Source: Nitrospirota bacterium | Lineage (GTDB): Bacteria; Nitrospirota; Nitrospiria; 2-01-FULL-66-17 | NCBI GenBank assembly: GCA_040757335.1 | Contig: JBFLXB010000004.1 | Coordinates: 1 to 64,000, forward strand | Length of the DNA: 64,000 nucleotides | Direction: 5' to 3' | In this document: positions 19,363-29,923 of the stretch, piece by piece | Layout: every line of letters begins with the position of its first letter | Position numbering within the stretch: position 1 is the stretch's first letter | Notes under the pieces: generated by a model | What the model was told of the DNA's origin: nothing | Databases searched by the model: none | The model's input: the letters and a program-made list of their open reading frames with translations, nothing else | Position numbers and translations under genes: made by a program

Positions 19363-19398
19363 TTGCCTGGGACAAAATTTGGGATTATATTCCCAAAT
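19363..19398 (+). promoter_or_regulatory. promoter overlapped by a perfect inverted repeat, upstream of the DUF6502 gene
   Basis: TTGCCT (19363-19368), a 17-bp spacer and TATATT (19386-19391) make a good sigma70-type promoter. A perfect palindrome with 8-bp arms ATTTGGGA/TCCCAAAT and 6-bp centre spans 19377-19398, covering the -10 box and the expected start. The ATG at 19399 follows directly. The layout suits autorepression by a dimeric regulator. Confidence 0.6.
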
Positions 19399-20232
19399 AT
19401 GAAAAAGGACATGAGCCAGGCCCTTTCGGCCGCGATTCGAAAGTTGCTTCGCCCCGTAATTCGCATCCTGCTGAGGAACCACGTTTCCTTCGGAGTGTTT
19501 TCAGACCTGGCGAAACGGGTCTATGTAGAAGTGGCCATGGAGGAGTTCGGATTGCCCGGGCGAAAACAGTCCGTTTCCAGGGTGTCCATCCTGACCGGTC
19601 TATCCCGCAAGGAAGTGGGGCGCGTCAGGCATCTGCCCATCCCGGATGACGCGGAGGCTGTCGGGCGCTACAACCGGGCGGCTCGGGTAGTGACCGGCTG
19701 GGTCCGAGACGAGGCCTTTTCCGACGGACAGGGAAACCCGGCCGTTTTGTCCGTGGAAGGAACCGGGGCCACCTTCGCCGAGTTGGTCCGGCGGTTCAGC
19801 GGGGATGTACCGGCCCGGGCGGTCTTGGACGAGCTGTTGCGAAACGGCCTGGTGGGGCGTCGGGGGGAGGGCAAGGTCCGCCTTCTGGCCCGTGCCTATG
19901 TCCCACGCAGGGAGGAGACAGAGAAACTCAGCATTCTGGGAACGGATGTATCGGATCTGGTTCGCACCATCGACCATAATCTTCGCGCCGGGGAGACCGA
20001 GGCCCTCTTTCAACGCAAGGTCGCCTATGACAACCTGCCCGAAGAAGTCCTGCCGCAACTGAGAGAGCGCACCCGCGAGCGAGCGCAGGCCCTCTTGGAA
20101 GAGATGGACCGATGGCTTTCACAACATGACCGAGACCTGAATCCTTCCGCCCAGGGGACAGGGCGAAAGCGTGGCGGCATCGGTATTTATTATTTTGAAG
20201 AAGAGTTCCCGGAGGGAGGAAGGGGAAAATGA
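19399..20232 (+). CDS. DUF6502 family protein
   Basis: 277 residues from ATG 19399; a second ATG at 19411 is possible. Matches the DUF6502 family: LSAAIRKLLRPVIRILLRNHVSFGVFSDLAKRVYVEVAMEEF, then QSVSRVSILTGLSRKEVGRV, which looks like a helix-turn-helix segment, and a C-terminal Arg/Glu-rich helix. No signal or membrane segment. An HTH plus an adjacent operator-like palindrome suggest a DNA-binding regulator, but this is inference. It is coupled to the DUF5666 gene by an ATGA overlap. The preceding 160 bp are AT-rich relative to the window, consistent with acquisition by transfer. Confidence 0.8.
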   Translation: MKKDMSQALSAAIRKLLRPVIRILLRNHVSFGVFSDLAKRVYVEVAMEEFGLPGRKQSVSRVSILTGLSRKEVGRVRHLPIPDDAEAVGRYNRAARVVTGWVRDEAFSDGQGNPAVLSVEGTGATFAELVRRFSGDVPARAVLDELLRNGLVGRRGEGKVRLLARAYVPRREETEKLSILGTDVSDLVRTIDHNLRAGETEALFQRKVAYDNLPEEVLPQLRERTRERAQALLEEMDRWLSQHDRDLNPSAQGTGRKRGGIGIYYFEEEFPEGGRGK

Positions 20233-21242
20233 CGCGCATGTTTTTGAAGAGGATGTTAGTTCTGGTGCTGCCCATAGCGGTCCTGGTCTCCTGTAGCGCC
20301 GACAATAGCACGTTTTCGGGCGGCGGCATCGGCGGCACGGGAGTCACCGTGGGCCCCATTACGGGATTCGGCAGCATTTTTGTGAATGGCGCCGAGCTGG
20401 ACATCTCCAACGCCACCGTGACCTTGGAGGGCGTGGATGACGATTCAGGCGATCCCAATCGCAGTCTGAAGTTGGGGATGGTGGTGGTCGTGCGTGGGAA
20501 CTTCAGCCCGGACGGCCTCACCGGCGTGGCCACCAGCGTGGCCTTCGAAGACAACCTGGAAGGCCCCGTAGATAGCGTGGACGCGGGAAATCAATTGACA
20601 GTGCTGCGTCAGACAGTGGTCGTGAATACCTCCACGGTTTTTGACGGGTTTAACGCTCTGAGTGAGCTGAGCCAAGGCGAGATGGTGGAGGTCAGTGGTC
20701 TGGTGGATGCCAACGGAAATATTCTGGCCACCCGAATCGCGTTCAAAGGGGACGACTTTAATGCTGTCGGGGAACTCGAGATCAAGGGGACTATCCGGAA
20801 CCTGGATACCACGTCGAAAACTTTTGTGATTGGAGCAGCGACAACTCCCCTGGTAGTGCAATACACCGGGGCCGAGCTGAAACTTGAAAATTCTCCCAAT
20901 GGCGTGCTGGAAAATGGTCTGTTCGTGGAAGTGGAGAGCAAACAACCTCCGTCGGGCGGGGCCATCCAGGCCAGTGAGGTCGCGGTGAAGAGCCCCTTCT
21001 CCGACTCCCTGGGCGAGGAAGGTGATCATGTGGAGATCGAGGGCTTTGTGACGGAGTTCAGCTCGCTTGATCAGCCCTTTAAGGTGAACGGCATTCTCGT
21101 CCTGACCACTGCCGCCACCGTGTACGAACATGGCTCGGCCATCGACGTGGCGAACGGTGTGCGACTGGAGGTGGAAGGGACGTTGGATGCCGACGGTGTT
21201 CTGACGGCGGTGAAGGTGGAGTTTGAGGACAGCAGCGGATAG
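20229..21242 (+). CDS. DUF5666 domain lipoprotein
   Basis: 337 residues; ATG overlaps the DUF6502 stop. N-terminal lipoprotein signal LVLPIAVLVSC (Cys18). The rest is repeated small beta-barrel units of the DUF5666 type: GPITGFGSIFVNGAELDISNATV, LKLGMVVVVRGNF, VDSVDAGNQLTVLRQTVVV, GEMVEVSGLVDANGNILATRI, with four to five copies. It should be an exported, anchored protein. DUF6502 and DUF5666 genes are coupled here, implying a shared process. No biochemical role is known. Confidence 0.85.
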   Translation: MTRMFLKRMLVLVLPIAVLVSCSADNSTFSGGGIGGTGVTVGPITGFGSIFVNGAELDISNATVTLEGVDDDSGDPNRSLKLGMVVVVRGNFSPDGLTGVATSVAFEDNLEGPVDSVDAGNQLTVLRQTVVVNTSTVFDGFNALSELSQGEMVEVSGLVDANGNILATRIAFKGDDFNAVGELEIKGTIRNLDTTSKTFVIGAATTPLVVQYTGAELKLENSPNGVLENGLFVEVESKQPPSGGAIQASEVAVKSPFSDSLGEEGDHVEIEGFVTEFSSLDQPFKVNGILVLTTAATVYEHGSAIDVANGVRLEVEGTLDADGVLTAVKVEFEDSSG

Positions 21243-22433: not shown

Positions 22434-23324
22434 ATGACTAACGAATCCTGGCAGGGAGCTGCTGCGACCTACCTTCGGCTCGCTGGTGAAGAAGCCGACC
22501 AGGAGGAAGGGACGTGGAGGTCACGGGTGTTGCGGGTGGGAACTGTGTTCGCGACGATCATGGTGGCGTTTGGCTGCGCAAGCGATGATGGGAGTTCCGG
22601 GTCGGCCTTGGCATTTAAAGCTGATGGTGACGGTGATGCGGACACCACCGCCACGGCCACTGGGACTGGCCCCAATACGGCGACCGCCACGGCGACTGGA
22701 GGCGGTGATGACGGAACGGGTACTGGAACCGCCACGGGTACCGGTCTCGACACAGCGACGGCTACGGGCACCGGAACCGGGGGACCTGGCACCGCGACCG
22801 CGACTGCGACCGGTGATGGGAATGCCACGGCTACCGACACCGCCACCGACCCGAATACGGTCGACGGCACCGGGACCAACACGGCGACGGGGACGGGCCT
22901 CGACACGGCGACGGCTACGGGAACCGGGACCGGGGGGCCAGGCACTGCCACGGCCACCGCGACTGGTGACGGGAACGCCACCGCCACCCTGACAGCCACC
23001 GACCCCAATACCGCTGAGGGAACAGCCACTGGTACGGACACCGGAACAGGCCTTGACACCGCCACAGCCACCGGAACCGGAGCGGGGGGTCCGGGGACGG
23101 CCACTGGCACGGCCACTGCCACAGGGAATGCCACGGCCACTGATACCGCCACAGCCACCGATGTAAACGCGGTTGACAGCAGAGTCACTGCTGACGGAGA
23201 TCTGACGGCCACGAACATCCAGACCGGGATGCCCAATACATTCACTGACACCGGTACTGGCACATGGACAGGCCCTGATCCGAACGATACGGGTACTGGC
23301 ACAGGAACTGGAACGAACCTTTGA
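22434..23324 (+). CDS. Thr/Ala/Gly repeat lipoprotein
   Basis: 296 residues, ATG preceded by AGGAG at good spacing. An N-terminal hydrophobic stretch ends in a lipobox-like AFGC (Cys48). Residues about 60-270 are low-complexity Thr/Ala/Gly/Asp with three tandem units of 51 residues, each beginning [11 protein letters not shown] and containing [19 protein letters not shown] and DPNT; the third is shorter. The DNA repeat is 153 bp. Alternating Thr suggests a regular beta or solenoid stalk. The opposite strand also has an open frame (Val/Pro/Ala) but no start signals. Real expression is likely from the ribosome site and lipobox; function unknown. Confidence 0.65.
22740..23180 (+). repeat. 153-bp tandem repeat, about three copies, in the Thr-rich lipoprotein
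   Basis: The segment starting with the codons for [11 protein letters not shown] recurs every 153 bp (51 codons) twice exactly in length, with a third, shorter unit. Copies differ by scattered substitutions. There are no unique spacers, so it is not a CRISPR array. Confidence 0.7.
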
Positions 23325-23577: not shown

Positions 23578-24714
23578 ATGATAGAAAGTCCATATGCAGG
23601 ACGTTGGGGCACGCGACTCGCAATCTCCGCGATTATTGGACTCCTGATCTGGGTCATCCACGGGGCGTTGGCTGGACAGGCCGCGCCTCCAGGGCAAGTA
23701 TTCAACCACGACCGGACCCTGTTTCCGCTTACCGGGCAACACCAGCGGTTGGAATGCGAGGCCTGCCACACTGGCGGCCGGTACGAGAGCCTGCCTACGC
23801 AGTGCGGGTCCTGCCACAAAGCGCCCGCCAGACATGTGGTCGATCAACGGACTGCCGCAGCCGCGGGCGGGTGCGACGCGTGCCACGACACCACCGACTG
23901 GAGCCGCGCGAGTTTCGTCCATACCCCTGCGATGACCGGCGGGTTGTGCAGTACTTGCCACAACGGCCAGCGAGCCGTGGGCAAGCCGGCCGGCCACATC
24001 GCCACCACCGCGGAGTGCGGCACCTGCCACACCACCACCAGTTTCGCCGGCGCGGGATTTCAGCACGATGCCACGACCGCGGGCCGGTGCGACACGTGCC
24101 ACAACGGACGGACCGCCGCGGGTAAACCCTCTGGGCACCTTGCGACCACCGCGCAGTGTGATCAGTGCCACAATACCAGGAGTTTTGCCGGCGCGGGATT
24201 CCAGCACGATGCGACGGCGGCAGGCCGGTGCGACACGTGCCACAACGGGCGGACCGCCGCGGGTAAGCCCTCCGGACACATTGTCACCACCGCGCAGTGC
24301 GATCAGTGCCATACCACGACGAGTTTTGCGGGGGCGACGTTCCGTCACGACGCGGCGACGACCGCAGGCCGGTGCGATACCTGCCACAACGGGCGGACCG
24401 CCACGGGCAAACCCTCCGGTCATCTGGCGACGACCGCGCAGTGTGATCAGTGCCATCGCACCACGGGGTGGACGCCGGCGACGTACACGAGTCACGACAA
24501 TCCCCGCTTGATCGGCGGGCACGCGGGCCTGGACTGCAAGATCTGTCACCCCCAGGCGTTCACCTCGGTGTTTTATCGCGACGGGGTGCAATTCGGGTTC
24601 TGTTCCAACTGCCACAAGCGCGACTACGACCCCGTAGACCACCACAAGAACGTCAGCCTGCAGGTCAACGCGAACTGCGCCAACTGTCACGAGCATGCGG
24701 GGTATCGGTTCTAA
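23578..24714 (+). CDS. membrane-anchored 14-haem cytochrome c
   Basis: 378 residues. One N-terminal hydrophobic helix (about 13-32) acts as signal or anchor; the rest is periplasmic. I count 14 CxxCH haem-binding motifs, from CEACH near residue 60 to CANCH near the end. The middle is built of 47-residue units, each with two haems (CDTCHNGRTAAGKPSGH... CDQCH), repeated with near identity. Extra conserved His (FxHD, SGH) probably supply distal ligands. It belongs to the cytochrome c3-like repeat group. It opens an operon of five redox or envelope genes; the next gene overlaps its end by 20 bp. Confidence 0.9.
   Translation: MIESPYAGRWGTRLAISAIIGLLIWVIHGALAGQAAPPGQVFNHDRTLFPLTGQHQRLECEACHTGGRYESLPTQCGSCHKAPARHVVDQRTAAAAGGCDACHDTTDWSRASFVHTPAMTGGLCSTCHNGQRAVGKPAGHIATTAECGTCHTTTSFAGAGFQHDATTAGRCDTCHNGRTAAGKPSGHLATTAQCDQCHNTRSFAGAGFQHDATAAGRCDTCHNGRTAAGKPSGHIVTTAQCDQCHTTTSFAGATFRHDAATTAGRCDTCHNGRTATGKPSGHLATTAQCDQCHRTTGWTPATYTSHDNPRLIGGHAGLDCKICHPQAFTSVFYRDGVQFGFCSNCHKRDYDPVDHHKNVSLQVNANCANCHEHAGYRF
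23890..24471 (+). repeat. 141-bp tandem repeats inside the 14-haem cytochrome gene
   Basis: Near-identical blocks start at about 24040, 24181 and 24322, i.e. 141 bp (47 codons, two haem motifs) apart, with a more diverged copy upstream. They indicate recent growth of the haem chain by duplication. Confidence 0.7.
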
Positions 24715-26389
24715 CGCGAGGCGCGGAATCGGGTGGTGGGCGGTGACGGTGCTGAGCGTAACGATCCTCCTTCAAGGATGCGGGGGCGCGAGCAGGCGAG
24801 TCCCCCCGTCGCCGAGGTTCGCCAACGCCGAGATCGAGGCCGCGTACAAGAACGGTGAGTCGGCGTTGCTGAACGGCGACTACGTCAGAGCCCGGCGTGT
24901 TTTGATGCAGATCATCTCCCAGTACCCTGGCGAGAACGACCTCGCGCAGGTGCAGTGGCTCATCGCGAGGACCTACGAGCTGGAGGGTCGTTCGATCGAG
25001 GCCATCTCGGAGTACAAACGATTTCTCACCAACTTTCCCGACCATCCCAACGCGCCGGACGCCGATGATCGGCTCCGTCTGCTCGAAAAGGCGGCGCGGC
25101 CGAAACCGGCGCAAGCGGTCCGAATGGTCGGGGCCTTGTCCACGGATTACGAATTTGGCAAGGACCTGACGCCCGATCCGTTGACCACGTTGAACCGGGT
25201 GACCACGCGTCTGGACGCCCAGGTGCGCAATCTCGACGCCGGCCAGGGCAAACTGGTCTTCAGCGGGCTTCGATCGTTCGACTTGGAAGACAGTCGCAAT
25301 GATCGTGCCCGTCTCCAGAAGCTCTACGGCGACTGGCGCAACGCGGTGGATACCTTCTCGGTGCGGGCAGGACGGCAACCCTCCACCCCGGGATCGCTCT
25401 CAACGCGGTATGACGGCGCGGAGATCCATTACCGGGTGATACCTACGGTGGCGCTGAATGCGGCGGCGGGATTTCCAGTGGATCTGTCGACCAGCGGCGC
25501 GTTTTCGACGGATACGCGGTTTTACGAAGCTGGCGTCAGCGTGGCGGACCTCAGCGGCTCCACCGGCCGCGTCTACGCGGTACAGCAGACGGCCGGGAGT
25601 GTCGTGGACCGGCAAGCCGTCGGCGGAAATATTCAAGGAGTCTGGGGTCGTTTTGGGTTCAATGGGAACCTCGACTACGACACGAGTTTCGGCGAGTTCA
25701 ACGATCGGTTTCTCTCCCTGGATTACGCGTTGAAGGAATCGCTTCATATCGCGGTCGCGCAGGATATCCGAAACGACCCCTACCTGCAGATGAGTACCGC
25801 GCTCCAGGATCCGACGGCAATCACCCCCGGAATCGGATCCCTGGAGGAATTCGTGGACCTGGTTGGTGAAGACGCGGTCCGCAATTTGGCACAGCTCCAC
25901 ACGATTGATTCGACGGACACGCGGGTAGGCGTTCGATGGACGATCGATGAGCACTGGACCTCGACCGCGGATTACGCGTACACCACGAGCCGCATCACAC
26001 AGGCGGACGGAAGTCGGATTCGAACCACGTTCAACCGCCTCTCCGGGTACCTGGCGCAATACAACGCCTGGCGTCTTCCCGACTCGGCGTCGGTGTTGGT
26101 CATTTTCCAAGACGGCTCCGATCTCGCGACGGATACACTCTCGCTCACGGCCGGGGAGCGCATCGCCCCGGCCACGACGCTGCAACTCAAGGCGCGCGTG
26201 GAGTACACCAATTTTAAGAACGGGGGGACGGGTGACTCGATGCGGTACGTCCCCGGGTTGGTGCTCGACGTGGCGCCCGCGAGGTTTCTCTCCGTGACGG
26301 CCGAGGGCGAGTACACGATCGAGAACCGATTTCACGAGCCCGGACGCACGGCGATCTTTTCTCGCCTGAATGTGACGCTGCTGTTTTAG
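24695..26389 (+). CDS. lipoprotein with TPR domain and outer-membrane beta-barrel-like region
   Basis: 564 residues, ATG 24695 inside the end of the cytochrome gene. Residues 1-29 are a lipoprotein signal (TILLQGC, Cys29). Residues about 45-130 are two to three TPR-like helical hairpins (AAYKNGESALLNGDYVRARRVL, AQVQWLIARTYELEGRSIEAISEYKRFL). Residues about 145-564 show alternating hydrophobic/polar strands with aromatic girdles and end in LLF, as in outer-membrane barrels. An outer-membrane porin-like barrel beside multihaem cytochromes recalls porin-cytochrome conduits, although it is not recognisably MtrB. The position inside the redox operon supports that role; it is inference. Confidence 0.7.
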   Translation: MRGIGSNARRGIGWWAVTVLSVTILLQGCGGASRRVPPSPRFANAEIEAAYKNGESALLNGDYVRARRVLMQIISQYPGENDLAQVQWLIARTYELEGRSIEAISEYKRFLTNFPDHPNAPDADDRLRLLEKAARPKPAQAVRMVGALSTDYEFGKDLTPDPLTTLNRVTTRLDAQVRNLDAGQGKLVFSGLRSFDLEDSRNDRARLQKLYGDWRNAVDTFSVRAGRQPSTPGSLSTRYDGAEIHYRVIPTVALNAAAGFPVDLSTSGAFSTDTRFYEAGVSVADLSGSTGRVYAVQQTAGSVVDRQAVGGNIQGVWGRFGFNGNLDYDTSFGEFNDRFLSLDYALKESLHIAVAQDIRNDPYLQMSTALQDPTAITPGIGSLEEFVDLVGEDAVRNLAQLHTIDSTDTRVGVRWTIDEHWTSTADYAYTTSRITQADGSRIRTTFNRLSGYLAQYNAWRLPDSASVLVIFQDGSDLATDTLSLTAGERIAPATTLQLKARVEYTNFKNGGTGDSMRYVPGLVLDVAPARFLSVTAEGEYTIENRFHEPGRTAIFSRLNVTLLF

Positions 26390-26441
26390 GAGTGCGCTCC
26401 CGCAGGGGGCGGATAGGGACAACGAACAGGGAGGAACGGAG

Positions 26442-26747
26442 ATGGCGAGGGAATATGCGGTGGCGAAGGTCAGCGAAGTCGGTCCCGGTCAACGCAAACT
26501 CGTGGCGGTAAATGGCGCGAAGGTCGTGTTGATCAACCAGGGCGGGACGTATTACGCGATCAACAACGAATGTCCGCACGAGGGCAATCCGCTGTGTGAC
26601 GGCGAAATTAAGGACTGCACGCTCGTGTGCCCCACGCACGAGTGGGAGTTTTCGCTGAAGACCGGCGAGGCCGATGACCATCCGGGGTTCGAGGCCCAAG
26701 TGTATCCCGTGCGCGTGGACGGAGCCGAATTGAAGATCACGATGTGA
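26442..26747 (+). CDS. Rieske [2Fe-2S] protein
   Basis: 101 residues, ATG with AGGGAGG upstream. The Rieske motif is complete: CPHEGNPLCDGE with CxH, and CPTHEWEF with CxxH, giving two Cys and two His ligands. No membrane helix or Tat signal is present, so it is the short soluble ferredoxin/NirD type, not the membrane-bound bc1 type. It would carry single electrons. It sits 32 bp before a gene for a putative di-haem b membrane protein and between two multihaem cytochromes, so it likely serves that chain. Confidence 0.9.
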   Translation: MAREYAVAKVSEVGPGQRKLVAVNGAKVVLINQGGTYYAINNECPHEGNPLCDGEIKDCTLVCPTHEWEFSLKTGEADDHPGFEAQVYPVRVDGAELKITM

Positions 26748-26779
26748 GCGCACTCGTGTGAACTGAAAGGACTCAGGAT

Positions 26780-27676
26780 ATGGATGCCACACTGTCGTCA
26801 GCTGAGGCCGCGCCGATCCGTCTGCAGTGGATGCGGCCGTCGTCGGGTGTACTCGAGACTTTCAAGTATGTGGGCTTTGCTCTGATCTGGGGCGTGGGGC
26901 CGCTGTACGTGATGACGTACGAACCGTATGCCTCGAAGTCCCCGTTCGGCATCGCACTCGGCATCACGGGGCTTGTCTGTATGCTGGTTGGAGCCGGGAT
27001 GTACTCGCTCCGCAAACGCGCGGCGCGCTTCAAGAAAGTCGGCAAACTCTCGGGCTGGCTCTCGGCGCACATCGCGCTCTGCCTGGCGGGCCCCACGTTC
27101 ATCATGTACCATGCCACGTTCAACGTTCTGGCGCCGAACTCGGGCGTCGCAATTTACAGCATGCTGATCGTCGTGGGCAGCGGGCTCTTCGGTAAATACA
27201 TTCACGGCCACGTACTGCAGACGCTCGGCGGCGAACGCGCTGGCCTCAGACAGATCGAAAAGCAGCGGAGCCTGATTGATCTCGAAGTCGCGGGTCAGAG
27301 CGGAGTGCCGCAGAAACTGCTGGACAAGATCCAACAATTCTTCGAGGTCCGAACCGCCGTAAAGGACGTCGGCGTAGCGAAATCGTTCTACCTGCTGGCG
27401 AAGCTGGACGTGCTCGAGCGCGCCATTCTCCGGCAGGCTGCCGAAGAGTTCAAGGCCGGATTGCTGATGCGCCGCGACCTCAAGCCCCAGCAACGCGGGA
27501 TGCTGGAGGTGGGGGGCCTTCAGGGGCTGGCGGTCAAGACCGGGTTTGAGAAGCGCATCGCATTGGTCGAGGCCACGGAGCGCGCGTTTCGGTTCTGGCA
27601 CCACTTGCACCTGCCGCTGCTCGTCGTGCTGGTTGTCACCGTCGTCTTCCACCTGACGGCGGTCCTGCTATTCTAA
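26780..27676 (+). CDS. putative di-haem b-type membrane protein
   Basis: 298 residues with about five hydrophobic helices (about 28-46, 55-75, 94-117, 121-141, 275-297) and a cytoplasmic or periplasmic helical domain of about 130 residues between the fourth and fifth. In helix 3, His97 and His111 are 14 apart (SAHIAL...MYHATF); in the last helix, His277 and His291 are also 14 apart (HLHLPLL...VFHLTAV). Paired His with this spacing bind two stacked haems in cytochrome b, ferric reductase and NADPH oxidase cores. I recognise no exact family. It starts 32 bp after the Rieske gene and ends 4 bp before the 24-haem cytochrome gene. Confidence 0.7.
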   Translation: MDATLSSAEAAPIRLQWMRPSSGVLETFKYVGFALIWGVGPLYVMTYEPYASKSPFGIALGITGLVCMLVGAGMYSLRKRAARFKKVGKLSGWLSAHIALCLAGPTFIMYHATFNVLAPNSGVAIYSMLIVVGSGLFGKYIHGHVLQTLGGERAGLRQIEKQRSLIDLEVAGQSGVPQKLLDKIQQFFEVRTAVKDVGVAKSFYLLAKLDVLERAILRQAAEEFKAGLLMRRDLKPQQRGMLEVGGLQGLAVKTGFEKRIALVEATERAFRFWHHLHLPLLVVLVVTVVFHLTAVLLF

Positions 27677-27680
27677 CCGT

Positions 27681-29438
27681 GTGCGGCTGATCCCTGGGCG
27701 GGCTGGTCGCCCGCTTCTCCTGCTCCTCCTGCTGGTTTCGGTTTGGCCCGCCATGGCCTATGGCATCAGCCTGTTCAAGGGCGTGATGCCCGGTAAGGTG
27801 GCCGAGCCGCACGTCAAGGTCGAGGAGAAGTGCTTCGAGTGCCACGCCGCCCTGGGCAGGTCGTTCCAACCCAAGTGTGTCATCTGCCACAAAGAGGTCG
27901 GTGCAGACCTGGCGAACACGCGCGGGTTTCACGGGAAGACCGACACCGCCAAGTGCGAGGTCTGTCACAGCGAGCACAAGGGCCGCGCCTTCCAGTTGGT
28001 CACGTTCGATAAGAAAACATTCGACCACCATAAGACCGAGTACCCGCTTGCGGGCAAACACCTGGAGGTCGCGTGCGACAAATGCCATCAGAAGCCCAAA
28101 TTTCGCGAGACTCCGCGGGTGTGCTACCGATGCCATCAGGACGACGACTACCACAAAGGCACGCTGGGAAAGGAATGCGAGCAGTGCCACGTCGATACCT
28201 CGTGGAAAGAAATCCGTTTTGACCACGACAAGACCGACTTCCCGCTCGACGGGAAGCATGAGCCGGTCAAGTGCGAGCAGTGTCATACCAAGGAGTTGGA
28301 CGTCAAACAGACTCCTACCGCGTGCGTGGCGTGCCACAAGAAGGCCGACCCGCACAAGGACATCTTGGGCGAGAAGTGCGAATCGTGTCACACCGACCGG
28401 GATTGGAAAACATCGATCATCTTTAACCACGACAAGACGGACTACCCCCTGACGGGAAGGCACCGCGACACGAAATGTTTAGACTGTCACAAAACCCCCA
28501 GGCTCCAAGAAACTCCGCAGGTCTGCTACACCTGTCACAAGAAAGACGACCGTCACAAAGGGAATCTGGGCATGCAGTGTGCCGACTGCCATACCACTGC
28601 CGACTGGAAAAAGTTTCGCTTCGACCACTCCAAGACGCGCTATCCGCTCGTGGGGAAGCACGTCGAGGTCGGGTGCGATCAGTGTCACGCGGGCGAGCGG
28701 TACCAGAACATTCCGATGGAATGCGCTGGGTGTCACAAAGCCGATGACCCCCACAAGAACAAACAATTCAAGAATATCTTGGGCTTGAAGTGCGAGACGT
28801 GCCACACGGAACGCGACTGGAAGAAGCCGACCTTCGACCACAACAAGACCGACTTTCGGCTCCTCGACACACACCGCGAGACAGAGTGCCTTGCGTGTCA
28901 CACCACGCCCAAACTGGACCAGACGCCGACCACGTGCATCGGCTGCCATCGCAAGGATGATGTACACAAGGACAAGCTCGGAAATCGCTGCGAGACCTGT
29001 CACGACGCCAAGACCTGGAAGAAGGCGCCGACCTTCGACCACCAGAAGACCGAATTTCCGCTCAGAGGCAAGCATGAGCCGGTCGAGTGTAAGACGTGCC
29101 ATCGGACGCAACTGTTCGCCGATACGACGAAGGTCTGTTTTGAGTGCCACAAGAAGGACGACGACCACAAAGGGAAGTTCGGCACGAAGTGCGAGCGCTG
29201 CCATACCGACCGAACGTGGGAGCGGAAAGACTTCGATCATCGCAAGGAGACCGGCTACGCCCTGCAAGGAGCGCACGGGAAGGTCAAGTGCACGGAGTGC
29301 CACATCCGGCCGCTCTTCACGACCAGGACTCCGACCGTCTGCGGCGTTTGCCACCGCAACGACGACCTCCACGACGGGGCGCTCGGGCCGCGTTGCGACA
29401 AGTGCCACACGGTTGTCGAGTTCGCGATTAGGCGATAA
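27681..29438 (+). CDS. periplasmic 24-haem cytochrome c
   Basis: 585 residues, GTG start. Residues 1-26 are a Sec signal (LLLLLLLVSVWPAMA). I count 24 CxxCH motifs, evenly spread. The chain is a series of about 66-residue units with three haems each, with the recurring frame FDHxKTxFPLxGKH, C..CH, C..CH..DDxHKG, C..CHT..xW, typical of large cytochrome c3-like wires. Lys is abundant, giving a basic surface. No C-terminal anchor. It ends the operon and would provide a long haem chain in the periplasm. Confidence 0.92.
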   Translation: MRLIPGRAGRPLLLLLLLVSVWPAMAYGISLFKGVMPGKVAEPHVKVEEKCFECHAALGRSFQPKCVICHKEVGADLANTRGFHGKTDTAKCEVCHSEHKGRAFQLVTFDKKTFDHHKTEYPLAGKHLEVACDKCHQKPKFRETPRVCYRCHQDDDYHKGTLGKECEQCHVDTSWKEIRFDHDKTDFPLDGKHEPVKCEQCHTKELDVKQTPTACVACHKKADPHKDILGEKCESCHTDRDWKTSIIFNHDKTDYPLTGRHRDTKCLDCHKTPRLQETPQVCYTCHKKDDRHKGNLGMQCADCHTTADWKKFRFDHSKTRYPLVGKHVEVGCDQCHAGERYQNIPMECAGCHKADDPHKNKQFKNILGLKCETCHTERDWKKPTFDHNKTDFRLLDTHRETECLACHTTPKLDQTPTTCIGCHRKDDVHKDKLGNRCETCHDAKTWKKAPTFDHQKTEFPLRGKHEPVECKTCHRTQLFADTTKVCFECHKKDDDHKGKFGTKCERCHTDRTWERKDFDHRKETGYALQGAHGKVKCTECHIRPLFTTRTPTVCGVCHRNDDLHDGALGPRCDKCHTVVEFAIRR

Positions 29439-29451
29439 CACGCGCCTCCGC

Positions 29452-29480
29452 TTGACCCGACGTGGGGCTTGCCGTAGGAT
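29452..29480 (+). promoter_or_regulatory. sigma70-like promoter
   Basis: TTGACC (29452-29457), 17-bp spacer, TAGGAT (29475-29480), lying between the 24-haem gene and the small membrane protein at 29516. It suggests a separate transcript for the next two genes. Confidence 0.5.
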
Positions 29481-29515
29481 GCGGCCGGTTCAATGGCCAT
29501 TCCGAAGGCCATTCC

Positions 29516-29923
29516 ATGACGGCGACCACACTGATCGAGGAGGGCATGACCCGGAGCGCGGCGGCGGTGTTGGCCGGCTATTTTCTGTTGGCCGTGTCCA
29601 TTGCGTCAAAGTTCTGGTTGATCCGGTATTTTTCCCCCCAAATATTGCCCGCACCCGGCGAAGACGTGTTTCCGCATCCCGGATGGCTCCTCGCCCTGTT
29701 GGGCTCGGACGTCGCGCTCATGATTGCGGCGGGGTACGTCACCGCCAGGGTCGCTCGTCGCGCGCCGATCGCTCACGCGGTGGTCCTGGGGGCGGTCATG
29801 GTGGTGCTCGGCCTGACGTGGATGCTCGCGTTCCGGGGGTGGCTTCCGCTCTGGTACCAGGTGGTGCTCGTGTCCCTTGCGATTCCGGCCGCCGCAACCG
29901 GCGGGTCCTTGCGGGGCGGGTAG
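29516..29923 (+). CDS. small membrane protein, function unknown
   Basis: 135 residues from ATG 29516, with about four hydrophobic helices (AAAVLAGYFLLAVSIASKFWLI, LALLGSDVALMIAAGYV, AVVLGAVMVVLGLTWMLAF, YQVVLVSLAIPAAA). No recognised family. The promoter at 29452-29480 fits this start. The next gene, encoding a small secreted protein, starts 56 bp downstream with a ribosome site. Confidence 0.55.
   Translation: MTATTLIEEGMTRSAAAVLAGYFLLAVSIASKFWLIRYFSPQILPAPGEDVFPHPGWLLALLGSDVALMIAAGYVTARVARRAPIAHAVVLGAVMVVLGLTWMLAFRGWLPLWYQVVLVSLAIPAAATGGSLRGG

Follow-up and report, generated by a model that had tools for sequence, protein, structure and literature searches.

Identity of the Five-Gene Operon

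Which electron-transfer system do five adjacent genes of an uncultured Nitrospirota bacterium from groundwater encode, and does its inner end meet the quinone pool or the cytoplasm? The genes, called A to E below, lie in the window (the whole stretch of DNA analysed, 64 kb) on contig 4 of a 3.56-Mb genome (G000). All are on the forward strand: A (23578-24714, 378 amino acids, aa) encodes a 14-haem c-type cytochrome, B (24695-26389, 564 aa) an outer-membrane lipoprotein with TPR and barrel parts, C (26442-26747, 101 aa) a Rieske [2Fe-2S] ferredoxin, D (26780-27676, 298 aa) an inner-membrane protein (IMP), and E (27681-29438, 585 aa, GTG start) a 24-haem c-type cytochrome. We found that A, B, D and E almost certainly form a porin-cytochrome conduit of the PCC3 type. 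The whole reading proposed here, in which C would be a cytoplasmic Rieske protein that couples D to a soluble reductant and replaces a Fe-S flavoprotein accompanying PCC3 elsewhere, has about even odds (a probability of roughly 0.5).

The intergenic gaps from A to E are -20, 52, 32 and 4 bp, and all five open reading frames (ORFs) are collinear. An earlier annotation made from the letters of the window (the sequence-only reading) had placed the ORFs at these positions, with an overlap and gaps of 52, 32 and 4 bp, and had regarded the genes as one unit; our ORF and gap check confirmed the positions, and order and spacing support a transcription-unit-like block. Its count of 14 and 24 c-type haems was exact: the CXXCH motifs of A (14) and E (24) are all 38 that the forward strand of the window contains, so chance clustering is not an issue, and the reverse strand holds a single stray CXXCH. 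Terminator-like sites were not enriched (5 against 5.8 expected in shuffled sequence), and promoter and terminator scans gave nothing informative. The order A-B-C-D-E is identical in the nearest kin, a Nitrospirae groundwater metagenome-assembled genome (MAG) that belongs to a second genus of the same family f1 (G001, locus L016). Between these two genomes the operon genes have dN of 0.15-0.33 and dS of 1.3-2.0, the latter near saturation, which indicates purifying selection.

PCC3 was described in Fe(II) oxidisers (He et al. 2017, PMC5566968). Its parts are a porin, an extracellular multihaem cytochrome c, a periplasmic cytochrome c with 21, 24 or 27 haems and a five-helix IMP (He et al. 2017, PMC5566968; PMC10734462), the last being marked by two WX3HX13H motifs and SGXXG (He et al. 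2017, PMC5566968). D has the length (298 against about 300 aa), the five transmembrane (TM) segments, found by segment inspection and as model helices, and all the motifs of this IMP: W93-H97-H111 in TM3, S134GLFG138 in TM4 and W273-H277-H291 in TM5. Both WX3HX13H motifs and SGXXG were invariant in 31 aligned D homologues. The sequence-only reading had called D a di-haem b-type membrane protein, and the two HX13H pairs, H97/H111 and H277/H291, agree with this; two b haems are therefore expected from the motifs. No Pfam or NCBIfam family, PF01794 (FRD) included, matched D.

B begins with a lipobox (LLQGC), and its N-terminal TPR region is BamD/YfiO-like. Its AlphaFold2 model (mean pLDDT 84.6) combines TPR helices with 22 beta strands and matches porins in Foldseek (E 4e-12), and the genes for barrels that neighbour D in Beta- and Gammaproteobacteria are homologous to B, all consistent with the predicted PCC3 porin. 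A lipoprotein with a barrel-like C-terminus had been proposed earlier, to be abandoned if the 564-aa protein were predicted as a soluble fold; the modelling gave a barrel instead. A matches PF14522 and is built of A/T/G-rich di-haem repeats of about 47 aa, with 27 aa per haem. Its low complexity, its haem number (PCC3 extracellular cytochromes have at least 10) and its low ratio of residues to haems would make it the "extracellular" multihaem cytochrome of PCC3, with a predicted location on the cell surface. E has a signal-peptide-like N-terminus and eight repeats of three haems (CXXCH spacing 16-18-32/33), and its 24 CXXCH lie within the range of about 21-27 haems of the periplasmic cytochrome. 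Most homologues from intact loci carry 21, 24 or 27 haems, as follows from a build in units of three haems. Sequence search found no solved relative of E.

In relatives, A homologues beside B or E have 9-62 haems. PCC3 extracellular cytochromes with 59-62 haems occur in Rhodocyclaceae and other Betaproteobacteria (L080 12740-17656, L165 11927-16978, L166 12625-17697).

Comparison with Known Systems

The published PCC3 loci resemble the operon closely in their four components, IMP signature, 24-haem periplasmic wire, low number of residues per haem and variable extracellular cytochrome. Periplasmic cytochromes of 21, 24 or 27 haems and extracellular ones of 10-35 are given for Gallionellaceae (PMC10734462), and copy 1 of Sideroxydans CL21 has exactly 24 and 14 haems (PMC12442390), as E and A do. 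In Sideroxydans lithotrophicus ES-1, PCC3 corresponds to Slit_0867-0870 and Slit_1446-1449 (PMC8788666); the order of the second cluster is IMP, periplasmic cytochrome, extracellular cytochrome, porin (PMC12016527). The window genes are homologous to betaproteobacterial loci, Rhodocyclaceae included, with this same order, D-E-A-B. The window differs in having the order A-B-C-D-E, in its porin, a short TPR lipoprotein that lacks the extra N-terminal region of the Nitrospira relatives, and in adding a Rieske ferredoxin and lacking the Fe-S flavoprotein that adjoins PCC3 elsewhere. The earlier claim that the genes are not a known set fails, because A, B, D and E match every sequence signature of PCC3.

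The sequence-only reading overlooked PCC3, but the systems that it excluded were rejected here too. For bc1, C has neither a TM segment nor a signal peptide and is of the dioxygenase/NirD type; for Alternative Complex III, no Act-type family matched any of the five proteins; Nrf was rejected on family scores. MtrCAB/MtoAB was rejected on TIGR03508 scores (31.6 and 27.6 bits) below the cut-off of 192 bits and on the lack of an MtrB-type match for B. The MtrCAB/MtoAB and OmcB-type complexes share with PCC3 the barrel and multihaem cytochromes across the outer membrane; they differ in that A and E are only weakly similar, below cut-off, to MtrA/MtrC-type models, and in the inner-membrane partner. 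PCC4 has a 5-TM IMP with the same motifs, and its subgroup II has a Fe-S (pfam13247) gene beside the IMP; however, its IMPs are described as not significantly homologous overall to PCC3 IMPs, it has no extracellular cytochrome in that description, and the Fe-S family is another one (He et al. 2017). PCC_1-3 of Manganitrophus are porin-dodecahaem complexes by their description (PMC9040806) and were not equated with the window set. He et al. (2017, PMC5566968) likened the IMP to ferric reductases and NADPH oxidases. The FRD family likewise has two HX13H pairs and two b haems and passes electrons from cytoplasmic NADPH/flavin outward, whereas D has no Pfam match and no fused flavin domain, so the likeness is one of layout only.

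Gene Order in Relatives and the Slot between B and D

Relatives of D were found in Nitrospirota MAGs (many from groundwater, many of them Nitrospira), in a single Nitrospinaceae MAG and in several members of the Beta- and Gammaproteobacteria. An E homologue comes after D in these loci unless the contig stops there, and A and B homologues, or a contig end, lie alongside; only in the betaproteobacterial locus L160 was no B homologue detected within the stretch covered. A lack of synteny had been named earlier as grounds for giving up the five-gene set; instead, synteny was found in relatives. Three arrangements were observed: A-B-(slot)-D-E collinear in families f1, f5, f6, f7 and f9; A-B divergent from D-E in Nitrospiraceae (Nitrospira); and D-E-A-B in Beta- and Gammaproteobacteria and the Nitrospinaceae. 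Nitrospiria also commonly have a second family of IMP-like proteins (about 200-330 aa; L025-L027, L117, L118) that is separate from PCC3; several of its members adjoin 7- to 10-haem proteins.

The slot between porin and IMP holds the Rieske gene only in f1, in both of its PCC3 genomes. In two f5 genomes (G006, G015) it contains a ferredoxin-reductase-like flavoprotein and a single [4Fe-4S] ferredoxin, in one f9 genome (G265) a homologous [4Fe-4S] ferredoxin alone, and in five genomes (G011, G007, G019, G022, G008) it is empty. Thus, a soluble electron carrier adjoins D in three of the five collinear families, from two unrelated folds.

C itself matches PF00355 (E 8e-20) and has the Rieske motif CXHX16CXXH, with no visible signal peptide and no TM segment, as expected of the soluble Rieske Fe-S carrier previously assigned to the operon. 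Since it lacks a signal peptide, C should be cytoplasmic. Among NCBIfam models it comes nearest to dioxygenase ferredoxins and NirD, and its best solved match is the biphenyl dioxygenase ferredoxin; a protein of this cytoplasmic type would probably not serve as a carrier in the periplasm. Could it then be a stray dioxygenase/NirD-type ferredoxin, in the operon by chance and with an unrelated partner? Its confinement to one family and the four further Rieske-type homologues in G000, up to 45% identical to C, would fit. Yet the ortholog in G001, a different genus, occupies the same slot under strong purifying selection and is as conserved as D (76.2% and 76.5% identity, respectively), and other ferredoxins fill the slot in two more families; we consider a chance insertion very improbable. 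C is best read as a lineage-specific insertion or adaptor in PCC3, and the insertion of a Rieske gene into the PCC3 slot is a new observation here.

A Fe-S Flavoprotein Associated with PCC3

In the Beta- and Gammaproteobacterial loci, a gene divergent from D and about 0.2-0.3 kb away encodes a fusion protein in which a single TM helix at the N-terminus is joined to two [4Fe-4S] clusters and to a flavin domain of the pyridine-nucleotide type (YpdA/TrxR-like). A positive patch follows the helix, so that by the positive-inside rule the protein should face the cytoplasm. We found that this 2[4Fe-4S]-flavin fusion was correlated with PCC3 in three lineages, with Fisher p values that ignore shared ancestry and are hence inflated. 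Among 250 genomes of a betaproteobacterial order (full-length IMP at E < 1e-70, fusion at E < 1e-60), the fusion was present in all 14 with the IMP and in none of the 236 without it (p 3e-23). For 41 Gammaproteobacteria the numbers were 12/12 and 1/29 (p 2e-9), the one genome with the fusion but no IMP having its fusion copy at a contig start. In 270 Nitrospiria (IMP at E < 1e-40, full length or split) they were 30/37 and 7/233 (p 1e-26), and among the seven with the fusion but no IMP, one (G177) carries a fragment of the IMP on the contig that bears the fusion. This co-occurrence is a new observation here; the main texts on PCC3 that were covered hold no earlier report of a Fe-S partner, and priority is thus not established. 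The near-constant Fe-S/flavin partner suggests that PCC3 exchanges electrons with the cytoplasm.

The fusion is absent from G000. The seven PCC3-bearing Nitrospiria without it comprise the two genomes with the slot Rieske (G000, G001), two with a slot ferredoxin (G015, G265) and three others, of which two have loci cut by a contig end (G266, G118) and one is 88% complete with an empty slot (G022). Among collinear loci, a slot Fe-S protein was found in four of five without the fusion versus one of five with it, counts that are too small for significance and give a hint only.

An alternative is that the fusion, and by analogy the Rieske protein, may feed the maturation of c-type haem proteins by reducing apocytochrome thiols or haem. 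The flavin half resembles YpdA/thioredoxin reductase, and in Nitrospira the fusion can adjoin genes of the CcmH/CycH type and others that look maturation-like: at L169 2020-10417 (G003) and L061 1457-5086 (Nitrospira), maturation-like genes and then the fusion come after the PCC3 porin, with the CcmH/CycH-type gene of L061 confirmed by Pfam. In the Beta and Gamma loci inspected, however, the fusion adjoins D with no maturation genes beside it; it tracks PCC3 and not c-type cytochromes generally, G000 having other multihaem cytochromes and no fusion; and no maturation gene was seen near the operon of the window (19-34 kb). Supply to maturation is improbable, somewhat less so than a stray ferredoxin, yet an alternative to be reckoned with. 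Several Nitrospira loci also have a Sel1-repeat protein beside the fusion.

A Proposed Path from the Cell Surface to the Cytoplasm

From protein families and published models, electrons would move between the outside and A, positioned at the B barrel in the outer membrane, then E in the periplasm and the two b haems of D, which would carry them across the inner membrane, between the first haems of E and a cytoplasmic partner. D has seven K/R in its TM2-TM3 loop and a further positive cluster in segment 143-269; following the positive-inside rule, its N-terminus and a helical domain of about 125 residues should be cytoplasmic, in which case H97 and H277 would face the cytoplasm and H111 and H291 the periplasm. 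Dioxygenase-type Rieske ferredoxins typically have low potentials. C, probably also of low potential, may dock on the cytoplasmic face of D and connect it to ferredoxin or NAD(P)H, taking in f1 the place of the membrane-anchored fusion. As C is of a cytoplasmic type and the fusion is anchored facing the cytoplasm, it is most economical that both serve this face of D.

The published model (He et al. 2017) has D exchange electrons with the quinone pool, which would leave C and the fusion as accessories with no direct role in the wire. The HX13H pairs of D, as in quinone-active cytochromes b, and the five loci with empty slots are compatible with it, but it leaves unexplained both why a cytoplasm-facing Fe-S flavoprotein that adjoins D goes with PCC3 almost without exception in three lineages and why ferredoxins recur in the slot beside D. 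We regard it as rather unlikely, yet as an alternative of some weight. With C of a cytoplasmic type and the Fe-S flavoprotein co-occurring, a cytoplasmic ferredoxin/NAD(P)H pool is at least as likely as quinol. Of the "quinol-to-outer-surface wire" suggested earlier, the trans-envelope wire thus stands on family and signature; its direction from quinol to the surface is unproven.

Several points weigh against the whole reading proposed here. PCC3 function is described as unverified in any organism (PMC12442390). The Rieske-in-slot case consists of two genomes of one family. Slot Fe-S proteins and the fusion are not strictly exclusive, one f5 genome (G006) having both and two genomes, one 88% complete (G022) and one with its locus cut (G118), having neither. 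In f5-f7 the fusion is on a contig other than that of PCC3, its occasional position beside cytochrome c maturation genes in Nitrospira allows a maturation role, and shared ancestry inflates the p values above. Finally, AlphaFold gave only a mediocre model of D (pLDDT 76.7), one without a fold match; its fold search yielded nothing usable, and a PDB profile search with the D alignment only noise.

More broadly, PCC3 as such may be a direct circuit from surface to cytoplasm through a Fe-S/flavin module, and not a quinone-linked complex, an extension that we hold tentatively and at less than even odds. The module would be the fusion in most hosts and a Rieske or [4Fe-4S] ferredoxin in some Nitrospiria. 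Two directions were considered, uptake from minerals or partner cells and disposal; the many lithotrophs among PCC3 hosts here and in the literature would favour uptake, against which stands the lower expression of PCC3 by ES-1 on Fe(II) (PMC8788666). The circuit could use the membrane potential to turn extracellular donors into low-potential reductant for CO2 fixation, or it could alternatively vent excess reductant outside.

Neighbouring Genes

Just upstream of the operon, 22434-23324 encodes a protein of 296 aa with Thr/Gly/Ala repeats of the TATATGTG type; it has a lipobox-like FGC and no family match in Pfam/NCBIfam-type searches. Directly after E lies a small membrane-like protein (29462-29923, 153 aa), for which neither a Pfam family nor a redox motif was found; it is conserved at this position in G001 (L016 6074-6619). 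About 2.3 kb upstream of A, genes for DUF6502 (19363-20232) and DUF5666 (20229-21242) overlap. In L078 and L169 (Nitrospira) and in L076 and L079 (Gammaproteobacteria), too, this pair lies close to PCC3 or to the gene of its flavoprotein partner; as it recurs in just these four other loci, it was dropped as a part of the system. Beyond the window, the same contig (C4) carries two more clusters of three-haem c7-type cytochromes, at 66.6-69.0 kb (L049) and 95.7-96.8 kb (L050), which suggests more electron-transfer systems nearby.

Implications for PCC3 Hosts

Besides iron oxidisers, PCC3 hosts include, as shown here, Nitrospira, a Nitrospinaceae MAG and uncultured Nitrospirota. The inner-membrane entry point of the conduit was previously assumed to be quinone-linked, and the Fe-S flavoprotein found together with PCC3 across three lineages is a specific candidate for its cytoplasmic end, for which ferredoxins possibly stand in in other lineages. 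In ES-1, PCC3 is downregulated on Fe(II) (PMC8788666), and this speaks against a simple role as Fe(II) oxidase in that organism; a cytoplasmic connection, if true, would help to account for this response. If true, it would also mean that autotrophs could couple extracellular redox reactions to ferredoxin/NAD(P)H without quinones or complex I.

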